Origin: Bacteroidales bacterium
GTDB taxonomy: Bacteria > Bacteroidota > Bacteroidia > Bacteroidales > UBA932
Assembly (NCBI GenBank): GCA_017395045.1
Contig: JAFPWG010000024.1
Location: 1-64,000 of the forward strand
DNA length: 64,000 nucleotides
Direction of reading: 5' to 3'
Below the pieces are notes generated by a model. The model made no database searches. It had not been told where the DNA came from and was given only the letters and a program-made list of their open reading frames with translations. Both the position numbers and the translations under genes were made by a program. Shown here piece by piece: positions 3,442 to 59,953 of the stretch. Position 1 is the first letter of the stretch; each line of letters begins with the position of its first letter.

Positions 3442-6315
3442 CTACCGGAGCAGGTTGTCCATGTAGCTGGAACTCTTCTTGAAGCGGAGCAGGTCGGAGA
3501 GGGCGGAGGCATTGGCCGCAATGCGGAAGCTGTAAGACTTCCACTGTCCGGTCGGGACCCAGGAAACGGCGATATTGAAGCAATGCAGGTCATAGGTGGC
3601 ACTGACCTGCGTCGTGGTGACCTTCATGGCCATCACGTCGAAACCGGACGTCGCCTGGATGCTCATCCGGGGCGTGAGCTTGATGTTTCCGGACATGTTC
3701 AGTGTCTGGGTGAACCTCTTGTTATCGATCAGCCGGTTGTTCGAATACTGGTAGGTTTTCGAATAATGGAAACTATAGCTGAAACTGAGCGACCAGGGCG
3801 CGTTCGGATTCATATAATAAACGTACCCGCCGGGGATGTATTCGCCGGTGACCGGATGGGTGTAGATGCGCTGGTAGGAGGTGGCATCCGAACTGCCGCC
3901 GGCTTTTTTGCCGTCATTCCCGTTGATCGTGCCTTTTCCGTTCAGGGAGTAGGAGAAGGAAGCGCTGGCATTCGTCAGCCGCAGGGGAACGCCGGTCGCG
4001 ACCACGTTGAACTTGTTGATCTTGCGTCCGTGATCGTCGATGGCATACGGGTCGAAGCTGAGGCTTCCGCTCACGTTGAATTTTCCGAACAGGGACGTGG
4101 ACATGCTCACGCTCACGTTGGACATCTTCAGGGAGTCGGCCAGGAAATTGTAGCCCGTGTTGATCGAAAGCTGGTCCAGCAGCTTGACCTTCTTGCTCCC
4201 GGTTCCGGTCGTATCGCGCAGGTCACGGACCTTCGCCTCCAGGTTATTGCCGATGGTGATGTTCATGCTGCCGGTCTTCCCGCGTCCGGGAGGGGAGACC
4301 GTGTTGTGGTTTCCCTTCAGGGTATAGATGTTATACTGCGACTCCTCATGCCATCTTCCTTTCGCATCGTAATAACCTTCCAGGGTACGCCAGCCATTGA
4401 AGGCCGTGCCCTTCTCAGGGCTGAACGACATGGACACCGACGGGGTGATCACGTGGCGGATCGCCTGGATTTTCCGGTGCTTGCCGAAGTTTAGCATACC
4501 ATAGATACGCGTGCTCATGGACATGCTTCCCGAATAGGTATGCGTAACGCCGAACGTGTTGAAGGCCGTTCCCGGATCGATGGCGACATCCTGCGCCTGG
4601 ACGAGGTTCCCTTCCTTGTCGTTCACCATCACGGGATTCCCGTCCTTGTCATAGACCGGAGTCAGATACTGCTTGCCCGCGTTGAACATCCAGTTCATGC
4701 CATAGTTCACGCTGGGGGTGAAATTCAGGTATTTCAGCAGGGTGAAGTTCGGAAGGCCGATCTGGAAGTTGTGGGCCATACCGTTGGTCAGCCGCTGCAG
4801 CATCTTGGTTCCCAGGGAGTCACCCATTTCTTTCTGGCGGTATCCGGTTTCCGGGTCGATGACGTGGCTTCCGTCCGGATTGAGCACGAAGTCCTGGATG
4901 TCGCGCAGCTTGAAGTTCACCTTGTTCTGGATGGAGGTGGAATAACCGAACGAGATCTTTTCGTAGGCCTTTTCCTTGCCCACCCGGTTCTTCTGCTTGA
5001 AAGGATAGAAGCGCGTCACCGAGAAGGTGATGTTCGGAAGGGTGAACGTATAGCTGGAGTCCCGCGAATTCTGGCTGTGCAGGGCATTCACGGAAACGTT
5101 GAACTTGCCGTTCCAGTTATGGGAATAGGAGATGGAGGAGGACACCTGGTTCTGCAGGGCCTCATTGACGGAACGGGAGTTATACTTGCTGTTGGACGGG
5201 CTGGAGAAATTCACCGAGGCGCTGAAGGTCGTCCCGGGATGCGCCTTGGGATCCTGCGTATGGGACCATTTCAGGCCGAAGTTCTTGGACTGCCTGAAGT
5301 CCGCGCTGCCCTTCTCGCCGGTCTGGTCGTTGGAATAGGTGAGGGAGAATCGGCCGTTGAACTTGTAGTTGACCTTATACCGGGAATTGATATCCACGGC
5401 ATAGGATCCCAGGGTGAAGTAACTGCCCGTCAGGGACAGGTCGAAATAGTCGCCCAGGACGAAATACATGCCCGCATCCTTGACGAAGAATCCGCGCGCC
5501 GCCTCTTCGCCGAAAGTAGGCATCAGGAGACCGGTTGCCCGCGTGGGCTTCTCGGGAACGAACCCGAAAGGCAGGCCGATGGGGATGGGGACATCCGCGA
5601 TCACGGGATAGGCGGGGCCGAAGACGGTCTTCTGGGAAGGCTTGGTAACCACCTTCGCCATCGTCAGGCGCATGTAGTAATGGGGGTGCTCCAGGTCGCA
5701 GACGGTGTACATGCCCTTTTCCAGGTTCACCGACTGGTCCGGCATCATCTTGATCTTCTCACCGTGCAGGAGTCCCTCCGACTCCTGGGTGATCATATTG
5801 GTAATGATGGATTTACGGGACTCGAAATTGTACTTGAGCTCCTCCATCTTGTAGGTGGACTTGCCCTGTTTCATCTCCGGCTGCCCGATCCATTCCCCGG
5901 TGACGGGGTCCTTCCGGCCGCGGGCGAAGACCGTGTTGGTCTTCATGTCGTACTCGATGTAGTCGGCGGTCAGCTCCATGTCCTGGTAGGTGACCGTTGC
6001 ACCGCCGTAATAATAGACCTTCCGCTGGCCGTCGGTGAACTCGGTGATGATGGAATCCTTCGCGGTGGAGAAGGCGGGGCGTTCCAAAGAACTCTTGCTG
6101 AGCATGTCCAGGGAGTCGCGCCGGGCGATGGAGTCGGCCCGGTGGACCGAATCCCGGAAGGCGAGGACCGAATCCGGCAGGACGGCTGCTGCCGTCGTAT
6201 CGGCAGGGGGTTGCACACGGTCACGGTTCCGCCGGAAAAGCTGGGCGGAGCAGACAACCTGCCCGACCAGGAAGGCGAGGATGACCAATGTGATATATTT
6301 CCGAATTCTATCCAA
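3442..6315 (-). CDS. lptD: LPS-assembly outer-membrane protein LptD (OstA/Imp)
   Basis: About 957 aa. LptD is the beta-barrel that inserts lipopolysaccharide into the outer leaflet. An N-terminal signal peptide (hydrophobic VILAFLVG, ending near CSAQ) is followed by a linker. A periplasmic OstA-like beta-jellyroll (roughly residues 90-230, around [18 protein letters not shown]) and a long barrel of alternating aromatic strands complete the protein. The open frame extends to an ATG at 6357, but that codon lies between the -33 and -7 elements of a perfect promoter (6337-6367). The in-frame TTG at 6315, which still leaves a complete signal peptide, is therefore the likelier start. The gene is transcribed divergently from the amidase and lies 92 bases upstream of rho. 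Function is clear; the start is inferred. Confidence 0.88.
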
Positions 6316-56073: not shown

Positions 56074-56670
56074 ATGGACTTGAAAGGGAAACGGATCATC
56101 CTCGGGAGCAATTCCCCCAGACGGCGGGAGTTGCTTTCCGGCTTAAACATTGATTTCGAAGTTGATACCGAGAATAACTTCAATGAGTGCTTCAATCAGG
56201 ATATCCCCTTCGACGAAGTACCTCGCCTGATGTCCGTGGGGAAATCCCATGGCTTCCATCGCCCCCTTGCCGACAACGAAATCCTCATCACCGCCGACAC
56301 GATGGTCATCCTCCCCCCTTCGGAAGGACGCCCCGGTGAAATCCTGGGGAAACCCCGGGACCGGGAAGACGCCATCCGGATGCTCCGCGACCTGTCCGGC
56401 CGCGAACATCACGTCGTCACCGCCGTCACTCTCCGTACCGCCAGCCGGGAAGAAACATTCTCCGACACCACCGAAGTCTGGTTCAAGGACATGACCGACG
56501 AAGAGATCACCTACTACGTGGACACTTTCCAGCCCTTCGACAAGGCGGGAGCCTACGCGATCCAGGAATGGATCGGCTATGCCGGCATCACCCGCATCGA
56601 CGGATCCTATTTCAATGTCGTGGGATTCCCGGTGCAGAAAGTGTATGAAAGCCTCAGGAAACTGTTGTAA
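56074..56670 (+). CDS. maf: Maf family nucleoside triphosphate pyrophosphatase
   Basis: 198 aa. It hydrolyses non-canonical or specific NTPs (dTTP/UTP type in relatives). The opening ILGSNSPRRRELL is diagnostic. ITADTMVIL and ILGKPRDREDAIRML, then FDKAGAYAIQEWIG, complete the active site. It is translated with kdsC and the following PHP phosphatase gene. Confidence 0.93.
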   Translation: MDLKGKRIILGSNSPRRRELLSGLNIDFEVDTENNFNECFNQDIPFDEVPRLMSVGKSHGFHRPLADNEILITADTMVILPPSEGRPGEILGKPRDREDAIRMLRDLSGREHHVVTAVTLRTASREETFSDTTEVWFKDMTDEEITYYVDTFQPFDKAGAYAIQEWIGYAGITRIDGSYFNVVGFPVQKVYESLRKLL

Positions 56671-56680
56671 ACCAAACAGG

Positions 56681-57334
56681 ATGGATATTGACCCGCGGAC
56701 CGATTGCCATTGCCATATCCTGCCCGGCCTGGACGACGGAGCCGTGTCCCTGGAGGACTCGGTGTTTCTAGCCGGAAAACAGGTGGAATGGGGATTCCGG
56801 AAGGCTGTATGTACTTCACACAGAGTCGGAAAGTATCCCAACGAGCCAGGCCTGGTTACCTCCGTATGCAGAATGCTGCAGGAAGAGCTCCGGAAACGGA
56901 ACATCCCCTTGGAACTCATTCCGTCCATGGAGTACCGGCTGATACCGGAAACTTGGCCGGAGACCCTGGAAAAAGGCTGGCTACTTCCTTGGGAAGGCAA
57001 TCATATCCTCATCGAACTGCCTATCCACAAAGCCAGCCGGATCGGGAACATCGTTCCGGAGGACGAAATCAAGCGCCTCCTGGACATGGGATATCAACCG
57101 GTACTGGCACACCCGGAACGGTACCTTTACCTGGATTGGGACCGGTATCGCAGCTTGAAAGAGGCCGGAACGCTCTTCCAGCGGAACATCGGCTCGCTGG
57201 AAGGATTATATGGGGATGACGTGAGCGCCAGGGCGGAAACCCTTGCCGCCGAAGGATGGTACGACCTGCAGGGTACGGATCTCCATAACGCACGCTATGC
57301 GGCGTTCTTCGACAGTTTCGGATTCAACGTGTAA
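56681..57334 (+). CDS. CpsB/CapC-like PHP-fold tyrosine phosphatase
   Basis: 217 aa. The PHP motifs are DCHCHILPGLDDGA (metal-binding His pair and Asp), CTSH followed by KYPN, LAHPERY and GTDLHN. These fit the manganese-dependent CpsB/YwqE family, which dephosphorylates tyrosine kinases controlling capsule or exopolysaccharide synthesis. No cognate kinase gene is present here. The ATG at 56681 (MDIDPRTDCHCH) is chosen over a frame that opens inside maf. Confidence 0.85.
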   Translation: MDIDPRTDCHCHILPGLDDGAVSLEDSVFLAGKQVEWGFRKAVCTSHRVGKYPNEPGLVTSVCRMLQEELRKRNIPLELIPSMEYRLIPETWPETLEKGWLLPWEGNHILIELPIHKASRIGNIVPEDEIKRLLDMGYQPVLAHPERYLYLDWDRYRSLKEAGTLFQRNIGSLEGLYGDDVSARAETLAAEGWYDLQGTDLHNARYAAFFDSFGFNV

Positions 57335-57352
57335 GGAATCTTAAGATGGCAT

Positions 57353-57392
57353 AAAAAAAAAGAGAGTCGGCCTGTCACAGGCGGACGCTCTC
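57353..57392 (-). terminator. intrinsic terminator of the small 57.4-kb transcription unit
   Basis: Read on the minus strand, bases 57392-57362 form a GC-rich hairpin (GAGA/TCTC, GTC/GAC and GCCT/AGGC segments around a GTGAC loop). It is followed by nine T residues (57361-57353). The stop codon of the 30-codon ORF lies in the loop, so the 5' arm is coding. Confidence 0.85.
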
Positions 57393-57467
57393 ACTAACCA
57401 CATAATTAATAACACTAAAACTAATAACCAATAGAATGATTCCGTCAAGAGAACCTTGCTTCCTCAT
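57375..57467 (-). CDS. 30-aa hydrophobic peptide ORF within a putative small RNA
   Basis: ATG at 57467, TGA at 57377-57375. The peptide starts MRKQGSLDG, continues with a hydrophobic run IILLVISFSVINYVV and ends SESVRL: a basic N-terminus plus one short membrane-like helix. The ATG is 8 bases after a perfect TACCTTTG -7 box, so the transcript is nearly leaderless. The stop is inside the loop of a strong terminator. Codon choice is AT-rich, unlike neighbouring genes. It is not a family I recognise. It could be a leader or membrane micropeptide, or the ORF could be incidental and the RNA (about 118 nt) the functional product. It is not served by the neighbouring tdh transcript, which has its own terminator at 57622-57661. 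Confidence 0.5.
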   Translation of the reverse strand: MRKQGSLDGIILLVISFSVINYVVSESVRL

Positions 57468-57475
57468 TCCGGGTA

Positions 57476-57506
57476 CAAAGGTACGACTATTTTTTGGTTT
57501 TGCAAA
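57476..57506 (-). promoter_or_regulatory. promoter of the small 57.4-kb transcription unit
   Basis: Minus strand TTTG (57506-57503), a 19-base spacer and TACCTTTG (57483-57476), an exact consensus. Immediately upstream are long A/T tracts with an inverted repeat (57509-57531), resembling an UP-like element. A 13-bp palindrome (57554-57566) lies further up. Confidence 0.8.
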
Positions 57507-57553
57507 TTTTTTCAAAAGTTTTTTTTGAAAATTTTTAACGAAATTTATAAGTC

Positions 57554-57566
57554 ATTGATAATCAAT
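57554..57566. repeat. 13-bp palindrome upstream of the small unit
   Basis: ATTGAT, central A, ATCAAT. It lies about 48 bases upstream of the -33 element and shares the core TGATAATCA with the 44318-44338 palindrome. Confidence 0.4.
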
Positions 57567-57621
57567 ATGGAATTAAATAGATAATTTCTTCCCTACATAA
57601 ACTATTTCCCCGGAAAAACAC

Positions 57622-57661
57622 AAAAAAAAAGCGGAGAAAGACCCTGAATGTTCCCCTCCGC
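57622..57661 (-). terminator. intrinsic terminator of tdh
   Basis: On the minus strand GCGGAG (57661-57656) pairs with CTCCGC (57636-57631) across a 19-base loop, followed by nine T residues (57630-57622). It lies 39 bases after the tdh stop. Confidence 0.8.
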
Positions 57662-57699
57662 CCTTTCGGTGTGTTTCGTTTGCTTACAAATTGCAAGTA

Positions 57700-58653
57700 C
57701 TACAGGAGTTTCCTGCGCAGGCAAGCGATCATGTCCACGGTCATTGAGTCGATGTCATACGTGGGTTTCCAGTCCCATTCGGCGCGCGCACAGCTGTCGT
57801 CCATACTGTCGGGCCAGGAGTTGGCGATGGCCTGGCGCACCGGATCCACTTCGTAACGGACCTTCAGGGAAGGGATGTATTCGCGGATCTTGGCGAACAG
57901 GGTTTCCGGCTCGAAACTCATCGACGCGATATTGAAGGAGTTGCGGTGCACAAGACGGGAAGGATCGGCCTGCATCAGGTGCACGGCGGCGCCCAGGGCA
58001 TCCGGCATATACATCATATCCATATAGGTACCCGGAGCGATGGGGCATACAAACTCCTCCCCCTTTACGGCGGAATAATACACCTCCACGGCGTAGTCGG
58101 TGGTACCGCCGCCCGGAAGCGTGACGTTGGAAATCAGGCCCGGGAAACGGACCGAGCGGGTGTCAACGCCGTATTTATGGAAATAATAGTCACTCAGGAG
58201 CTCGGTGGCGACTTTCGTGACACCGTACATCGACCGGGGACGCTGAATGGTGTCCTGGGGCGTACCTACATGGGGCGTCTCGGGTCCGAAAGAGCCGATG
58301 GAACTGGGTGTAAAGACCGCACATTTCTTCTCGCGCGCCACTTCCAGGATGTTCAGCAGGCCGTTCATCTGGATGTCCCAGGCGAGCAGCGGTTTCTTCT
58401 CGGCGACGGCCGACAGGAGGGCGGCCAGATTGTAAATGGTGTCGATCCCGTATTTCTCGACGATATCGGCCAGCTGCTGCGCATTACGGACGTCGGCCAG
58501 TTCGGCGGGACCGCTTTCCAACAGTTCTCCCTTGGGCTCTGCACCCGGGATATAACCTGCAACGACATTCCCTTCCGGGATTTCGCGACGGATCTTCATC
58601 GTCAGTTCGGAGCCGATCTGGCCCGTGGAACCTATGACAAGAACATTTTTCAT
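57700..58653 (-). CDS. tdh: L-threonine 3-dehydrogenase, SDR (epimerase-like) type
   Basis: 317 aa extended short-chain dehydrogenase. NAD-binding GSTGQIG (about 8-14), a Ser/Thr region TPSSIGSFGP and the catalytic YGVTK are visible. The sequence type matches the NAD-dependent epimerase-like threonine dehydrogenases rather than the zinc form. It is divergent from kbl, which acts on its product 2-amino-3-oxobutyrate, giving threonine to glycine plus acetyl-CoA. It is followed by a strong terminator. Confidence 0.88.
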   Translation of the reverse strand: MKNVLVIGSTGQIGSELTMKIRREIPEGNVVAGYIPGAEPKGELLESGPAELADVRNAQQLADIVEKYGIDTIYNLAALLSAVAEKKPLLAWDIQMNGLLNILEVAREKKCAVFTPSSIGSFGPETPHVGTPQDTIQRPRSMYGVTKVATELLSDYYFHKYGVDTRSVRFPGLISNVTLPGGGTTDYAVEVYYSAVKGEEFVCPIAPGTYMDMMYMPDALGAAVHLMQADPSRLVHRNSFNIASMSFEPETLFAKIREYIPSLKVRYEVDPVRQAIANSWPDSMDDSCARAEWDWKPTYDIDSMTVDMIACLRRKLL

Positions 58654-58672
58654 TACGATCGGTTTTGTCTCA

Positions 58673-58680
58673 CAAATTTA
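58673..58680 (-). promoter_or_regulatory. tdh promoter -7 element
   Basis: Minus-strand TAAATTTG, 19 bases before the tdh ATG. A TTTG lies upstream, but with a 24-base spacer, longer than usual. Confidence 0.4.
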
Positions 58681-58724
58681 TGAGTTTTTTGTAAAAAAAC
58701 GATACAAATTCCGTAGAAAATCCA

Positions 58725-58732
58725 TAAATTTG
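58725..58732 (+). promoter_or_regulatory. kbl promoter -7 element
   Basis: TAAATTTG, 30 bases before the kbl ATG. No TTTG at the usual distance. Confidence 0.4.
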
Positions 58733-58762
58733 AAATCAGAAACACAAAAAACACTTTATACT

Positions 58763-59953
58763 ATGTACGGTAAATTCCAACAGCACCTCCAGGCCGAGCT
58801 CAAGGCCATCGAGGAAGCCGGCCTCTACAAGAAGGAACGCAACATCACTTCCCCGCAGAGCGCCGAGATTACGCTTCAGGACGGCAGCAAAGCCCTGAAC
58901 TTCTGCGCCAACAACTACCTCGGACTTGCCGACAACCCCCGCCTCGTCGCCGCCGCCGGGAAGGCCATGAAGGAACGCGGCTACGGCATGTCTTCCGTCC
59001 GCTTCATCTGCGGCACCCAGGACATCCACAAGGAGCTCGAAAAAGCCATCGCCGACTACTTCCATACCGATGACGCCATTCTCTACGCCGCCTGCTTCGA
59101 CGCAAACGGTGGCGTGTTCGAACCGCTTCTGACTGCGGAGGACGCGATCATCTCCGACTCCCTGAACCACGCCTCCATCATCGACGGCGTGCGCCTGTGC
59201 AAGGCCCAGCGTTTCCGCTATGCGAACGCCGACATGGCAGATCTCGAGGAGAAACTGAAGGAAGCCCAGGCCTGCCGCTTCCGCATCATCGTCACCGACG
59301 GTGTCTTCTCCATGGACGGCAACGTGGCCCCGATGGACAGGATCTGCGACCTGGCGGAGAAGTATGACGCCATGGTTATGGTCGATGAGAGCCACTCCGC
59401 CGGCGTTGTGGGCCCGACCGGCCACGGCGTCGCCGAGCAGTTCAACTGCTATGGCCGCATCGACATCTTCACCGGCACCCTTGGAAAGGCCTTCGGCGGT
59501 GCCGTAGGCGGCTTCACCACCGGCCGGCAGGAAATCATCGACATGCTCCGCCAGCGTTCCCGTCCGTACCTGTTCTCGAACTCCATCCCGCCGATGATCG
59601 CCGGCGCCGCCCTGGAGACCTTCAAGATCCTCAAGGAATCCGACCAGCTTCACGACCGCCTCGTGGAGAACGTGAACTACTTCCGCGACAAAATGATGGC
59701 CGCCGGCTTCGATATCAAGCCCACGCAGTCCGCCATCTGCGCCGTGATGCTGTACGACGCTCCCCTGTCCCAGAAATTCGCCGCCAAGATGGCGGAAGAA
59801 GGCATCTTCGTCACCGGTTTCTACTATCCGGTCGTACCGAAGGGGCAGGCCCGCATCCGCGTCCAGCTGTCCGCCGCACACCGGAAAGAACACCTGGACA
59901 AGGCCATCGCCGCCTTCATCAAGGTGGGCAAGGAACTGGGTGTCCTGAAATAG
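58763..59953 (+). CDS. kbl: glycine C-acetyltransferase (2-amino-3-ketobutyrate CoA ligase)
   Basis: 396 aa, standard length. This PLP enzyme cleaves 2-amino-3-oxobutyrate with CoA to glycine and acetyl-CoA. Visible features are FCANNYLGLADNP, DSLNHASIIDG, VDESHSAGVVGP and the PLP-Lys motif GTLGKAFGGA. The ATG at 58763 (MYGKFQQHL) is used; upstream frame extension passes through the promoter. It works with divergent tdh. A strong terminator follows. Confidence 0.94.
   Translation: MYGKFQQHLQAELKAIEEAGLYKKERNITSPQSAEITLQDGSKALNFCANNYLGLADNPRLVAAAGKAMKERGYGMSSVRFICGTQDIHKELEKAIADYFHTDDAILYAACFDANGGVFEPLLTAEDAIISDSLNHASIIDGVRLCKAQRFRYANADMADLEEKLKEAQACRFRIIVTDGVFSMDGNVAPMDRICDLAEKYDAMVMVDESHSAGVVGPTGHGVAEQFNCYGRIDIFTGTLGKAFGGAVGGFTTGRQEIIDMLRQRSRPYLFSNSIPPMIAGAALETFKILKESDQLHDRLVENVNYFRDKMMAAGFDIKPTQSAICAVMLYDAPLSQKFAAKMAEEGIFVTGFYYPVVPKGQARIRVQLSAAHRKEHLDKAIAAFIKVGKELGVLK

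Follow-up and report, generated by a model that had tools for sequence, protein, structure and literature searches.

What does a transcription unit of little more than a hundred nucleotides produce, if it contains a short open reading frame (ORF) but is otherwise built like the gene of a small RNA? The minus strand of the window, as we call the whole stretch of 64,000 nucleotides analyzed here, contains a unit of ~118 nt in which a promoter, an ORF and a terminator follow one another exactly as they had been described in a sequence-only reading, which proposed a regulatory RNA, a membrane micropeptide or a translation-sensing attenuator as the product. Here we compare this unit with its counterparts in related genomes and propose a function for it.

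Organization of the locus

The promoter proposed in that reading, TTTG-N19-TACCTTTG, is borne out by the sequence, and transcription probably starts from it. The ORF exists as well, with its ATG eight bases past the -7 box and the translation MRKQGSLDGIILLVISFSVINYVVSESVRL; the entry for its frame in the ORF list is a longer form started from TTG. The terminator is present and folds into three helices with single mismatches between them, whose arms covary. The upstream gene, previously called tdh, belongs to the Pfam Epimerase family and ends at 57700, and a hairpin with a T-run after this position, recognized only by eye, agrees with the suggestion that it has a terminator of its own. A simple terminator scan of positions 56500-58800, which requires a plain stem with a loop of 3-8 nt, returned zero sites, listing neither the terminator of the unit nor that of tdh. 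The downstream gene, on the opposite strand, has a Pfam match to CpsB_CapC. Two features go beyond the original description, namely a 5' hairpin and an invariant segment of 36 nt (Table 1).

Table 1. Features of the small RNA locus (coordinates within the window)
Feature	Position	Strand	Evidence or remark
Promoter TTTG-N19-TACCTTTG	57476..57506	-	sequence; a box resembling TACCTTTG here is the mark of class A (112/151 copies)
TTTG box	57506-57503	-	followed by the 19-nt spacer and TACCTTTG at 57483-57476
5' hairpin	57433..57470	-	covariation in helices 1 and 2; outer stem kept across class A
5' hairpin, outer stem	57470-57464 with 57439-57433	-	
5' hairpin, inner stem	57458-57455 with 57449-57446	-	loop GUUCU at 57454-57450
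Nearly invariant 36-nt segment TGGTTATTAGTTTTAGTGTTATTAATTATGTGGTTA	57395..57430	-	column counts in alignments of copies
Proposed seed UUGGUUAUUA	57422..57431	-	the four top-ranking 7-mers from the start regions of susC in three genomes of the genus overlap to form its complement TAATAACCAA
Terminator hairpin and nine T	57353..57392	-	fold; covariation in helices 3 and 4; hairpin 57392-57362, nine T 57361-57353
ORF of 30 aa, judged accidental	57375..57467	-	start and frame not conserved

Conservation and structure of the RNA

A 181-nt query containing the unit found matches with E<1e-10 in 30 of the 36 other genomes sampled from the genus (the match in G005 covers the 5' part only, at a contig end). 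In the 23 copies found by BLAST, 35 of the 36 columns of the invariant segment (hereafter the core) are identical, with both flanks variable. Its exact 19-mer is present in 54 of the 61 sampled genus genomes that are at least 90% complete, as 70 copies in total: one copy in 41 genomes, two in 10 and three in 3; the genome of the window has 1. A scan of named genomes with an exact 23-mer yielded at least 120 stretches, and the 80 matches listed comprise six Candidatus Cryptobacteroides species and others that are mostly Bacteroidales MAGs; the genus of the window's organism is presumably Candidatus Cryptobacteroides. A covariance model matched 16 of 149 genomes of the family, 11 of them from this genus, with strong scores, and 5 from other genera, with weak scores (L076-L080, excluded from the copy counts); 113 of the unmatched genomes are unlisted, so the 11 genus matches stand without a denominator. 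No family of Rfam 15 reaches its gathering score in the window, and ten copy-bearing loci gave only tRNAs in an Rfam search.

Altogether 151 distinct copies were collected, most of them via exact core 15- or 23-mers, which inflates the identity of those columns in the counts over this set. They comprise 112 copies of class A (promoter and 5' hairpin), 12 of class C (core immediately after the promoter), 11 of class B (behind tRNA-Cys), 7 of class D (behind a TGGCAC-type sigma-54-like site), 5 at contig edges and 4 others; the regular expressions used for this classification misplaced L208 in class C, and it truly belongs to class A. L196 fits no class, and no terminator was seen in it.

The RNA thus has a simple anatomy, with the 5' hairpin, the core and the terminator in succession. 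MAFFT misaligned the 5' hairpin, and a model built from seven sequences was therefore used to realign 86 copies (85 distinct) from 85 sources, a subset of the loci carrying copies. In this alignment 22 of the 24 pairs have changed on both sides, in helices 1 and 2 of the 5' hairpin and 3 and 4 of the terminator; the covariation score is 0.546, against 0.168 for shuffled alignments (0/500 as good), and it is lost once the partners are shifted by 1 to 3 columns. Because fitting an alignment to a structure biases it towards that structure, we also checked the stem without any alignment: an outer 5' stem with 6 bp or more was found in 97% of the 112 class-A copies against 19% of shuffled sequences, with the accepted loop words taken from a list of our own; the loop GUUCU occurs in 85 of these copies. 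The folding energy of the whole RNA is modestly better than that of shuffles (z -1.73; 7/200 equally good). The copies in relatives, the exact 19-mer and the covarying hairpins make us practically certain that the unit is an independent gene of a noncoding small RNA, one of the possibilities offered by the sequence-only reading.

The ORF and the neighbouring genes

Conservation in close relatives, which that reading regarded as decisive for both the hairpin and the ORF, turned out differently for the two: both hairpins are kept and covary, whereas the start and the frame of the ORF are lost. The ATG sits within one arm of the 5' stem, in the context GGAAUGA in the window, which reads GGAUUGA or GGGUUGA in many relatives, and 85 of the 112 class-A copies have no ATG within their first 18 nt. 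A sequence beginning with MRKQGS can be read in 7 of the 112, the window among them, and only the window and L206 share the stop that yields 30 aa; in the other copies frames shift and stops move, and an ORF that starts with ATG and reaches 20 aa exists in 15 of 112. In classes B, C and D the hairpin that carries the ATG is dropped or replaced. The core is unchanged in all frames and at all codon positions, so coding offers no explanation for its invariance. A phage search with the 30-aa peptide found no match. Despite the suggestive position of the ORF next to the promoter, we consider it hardly credible that the functional product is a membrane micropeptide or an attenuator built on it, and we reject both readings, given that start codon and frame are unconserved across class A; the attenuator is additionally unsupported because the arms of the terminator change together as RNA pairs.

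Neither does the unit seem to serve its neighbours. Its location between tdh and the CpsB/CapC-type gene would be compatible with a cis-acting element, belonging to the tdh 3' region or exerting antisense control of the CpsB/CapC-type gene, and 26 of the 112 class-A copies do have tdh ahead of them in the same orientation. However, a motif search, in which some loci were shortened by contig ends, recognized neither gene within 2.5 kb in 82 of the 112, nor in any copy of the other classes, which makes such a role very improbable. Most copies of classes B, C and D appear to sit at unrelated sites with their long flanks intact.

Predicted targeting of susC mRNAs

FopS, a small RNA family of Bacteroides thetaiotaomicron (RF04319), is reported to pair with susC mRNAs around their translation starts and thereby to repress them (PMC11697453), and it is because of this activity, in an RNA of similar build, that we tested susC genes as targets. 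TAACCAA, which is complementary to UUGGUUA at the core start, is the top 7-mer of susC start regions in the genome of the window (8/23 against 4/541 AT-rich regions), and again in three other genomes of the genus (13/53 against 1/349 AT-rich background regions). In these three genomes the longest core complement in susC regions has a mean of 7.91, compared with 6.47 for shuffled cores (0/300 as good), and complement runs of at least 10 occur in 11 of 53 susC regions versus 5 of 349 background regions. In other genera, represented by 32 susC regions from three genomes in which the covariance model found no match, no region has such a run, and the longest complement is at chance level (167/300). 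Runs of at least 10 are enriched in genomes with the RNA over those without it (11/53 versus 3/92, p 0.001), also with the window's genome included (11/76 versus 3/92, p 0.009). In the latter genome the core complement is better than 284 of 300 shuffled cores (16/300), with no run of at least 10 in 23 regions. The susC link is thus supported in the genus by these sequence statistics and marginal for the window's own genome.

These tests used 12 of 12 susC stretches from G118, 18 of 19 from G505, 23 of 26 from G016, 17 of 17 from G070, 11 of 11 from G063 and 6 of 6 from G074 (L339 and L343 had no usable ATG), and the start codons in all multi-genome tests were picked by a simple signal-peptide rule. 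The copy-lacking set comprised 60 stretches from G032 (26/38), G480 (18/20) and G509 (16/19), and none from G513, G502 or G519. An early test with gapped scoring gave no signal (82/150); it relied on 17 genes picked by a regular expression, some of them wrong, and a curated set of 23 (22 in one test) took its place.

Several results are weaker or point elsewhere. Genus members in which no copy was found, which in draft genomes does not prove absence, show pooled susC complementarity (3/300) that differs between genomes: a signal in G480 (1/300), a weak one in G509 (34/300) and none in G032 (102/300). TAACCAA is present in 3 of 10 regions of G063, from another genus, and taken alone it does not differ significantly between genomes with and without the RNA (21/76 versus 4/32, p 0.07). 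The 6- to 8-mers of the complement did not differ from those of the reversed complement, 956 pooled start regions showed no excess of complementarity to the core, and near-complement 19-mers were not clearly in excess genome-wide (50 versus 38 control matches). The seed is predicted to be only ~41% unpaired, and the T at its second position is missing in 15 of the 151 copies. Two antisense sites with three mismatches before start codons in the window's genome (L032 and L033, genes that we take to be cydA- and ilvE-like) were rejected, as one control match equalled them.

Some of these observations would fit an RNA that mainly binds or titrates a protein. In such an RNA the core would serve as a platform for the protein, and the match to susC would be incidental or reflect something common to susC leaders throughout the genus. 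Near-invariance over 36 nt is long for a seed, GUUA recurs in the core at 15-nt steps (as judged by eye), pairing sites are not in excess over all start regions, and the susC signal remains in G480. On the other hand, the complementarity to susC beats all 300 shuffled cores in the three genus genomes, and an RRM protein of the RbpB type was not found in 60 of 61 genomes. We regard the protein platform as possible but distinctly the less probable function, and prefer, with moderate confidence, to explain the RNA as a trans-acting, FopS-like repressor of susC-type mRNAs; targeting of susC as such appears likely to us to the same moderate degree. According to this model, the 5' hairpin would shield the 5' end or be bound by a protein, and the first ~10 nt of the core would pair with TAATAACCAA-like stretches just 5' of susC-type start codons, hindering the translation of outer-membrane transporters; the remainder of the core may recognize additional targets by pairing or be a binding site for a non-RRM protein.

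Copies behind other 5' modules

In nine loci (L023, L072, L073, L074, L084, L089, L110, L166 and L200) the RNA segment and its terminator begin 7-8 nt after tRNA-Cys, and no promoter was recognized in between in the class B loci. ARAGORN found tRNA-Cys in 9 of the 9 loci submitted; 8 of these loci hold class-B copies (out of 11 in that class), and the ninth is L074, which duplicates the copy in L073. Upstream of the class D copies (L081, L082, L102, L117, L119, L146 and L249) there is a sigma-54-like TGGCAC-N5-TTG, and three of the seven (L117, L146, L249) have the full TGGCACG-N4-TTGCA, which we take to be the sigma-54 consensus form; L102 has this form with other spacer letters. RpoN was found in all 15 genomes tested. 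An exact core with a terminator is also present in an IMG/VR contig catalogued as viral (L064, IMGVR_UViG_3300021255_000042, positions 5530-5640), following the end of an ORF that by eye resembles the tail of a DNA ligase.

The copies behind sigma-54-like sites or tRNA-Cys would supply an identical segment in response to other signals. We tentatively suggest that the core may be a fixed cassette shuttled among 5' modules (the main sigma factor with or without the hairpin, sigma-54, and excision from pre-tRNA-Cys), by which one seed might repress susC-type transporters in response to several signals that have nothing in common, with no RRM protein involved, as a lineage-specific replacement of FopS; we hold this to be somewhat less probable than its opposite. 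Identical seeds under different promoters form a natural comparison. The RNA is a testable candidate for the control of nutrient uptake in an uncultured genus that is widespread in the gut and rumen, and it suggests that FopS-like control may be possible without an RRM protein.

Comparison with known systems

In the literature searched we found no earlier description of a Cryptobacteroides small RNA or of its core, and only the FopS paper was relevant. FopS is the closest known system in build (PMC11697453): both RNAs have a TAnnTTTG promoter, a terminator, a conserved AU-rich segment of ~30-40 nt and paralogous copies, and susC start regions are targeted by FopS and predicted to be targeted by the Cryptobacteroides RNA. 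They differ in the 5' end, which is single-stranded in FopS and forms a hairpin here, in the number of copies (12-15 against usually 1-3) and in the RRM partner RbpB of FopS (PMC11697453).

The Cryptobacteroides RNA is not a member of the FopS family by score (18.7 bits, with a gathering score of 56 for RF04319), copy number or partner. Its core aligns weakly with the 41-nt motif or R1' seed of FopS (local score 28; 54 of 2000 shuffled cores as good). RRM_1 was found in 1 of the 61 sampled genus genomes and not in that of the window; the sole such protein, in L259 (around G013:C7:34795-35004), is over the cut-off. Across the order, the FopS model had matches in 80 of 295 genomes, 55 of which exceed its cut-off, and none in the window's genome at E<=0.01. 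Two RNAs from other genera of the family, a FopS-like one (L078:1502-1574) and a shortened relative of the core (L080:1494-1614), may be links between FopS and the core. Their scores with the covariance model are weak (31.8 and 26.8 bits, respectively); L080 aligns with the core and L078 with FopS (0/1000 shuffles as good in each case), but L080 with FopS (205/1000) and L078 with the core (19/1000) provide no firm chain from one to the other.

The tRNA-linked copies recall another system, the 3'ETS-leuZ of E. coli, a small RNA that is released from a tRNA transcript and acts as a sponge of other small RNAs. The likeness lies in the position of class B copies directly after a tRNA gene, from whose transcript they would putatively be released; the difference is that the class B piece is the same segment as in the free-standing genes, complete with a full terminator, whereas the 3'ETS of leuZ is a sponge.
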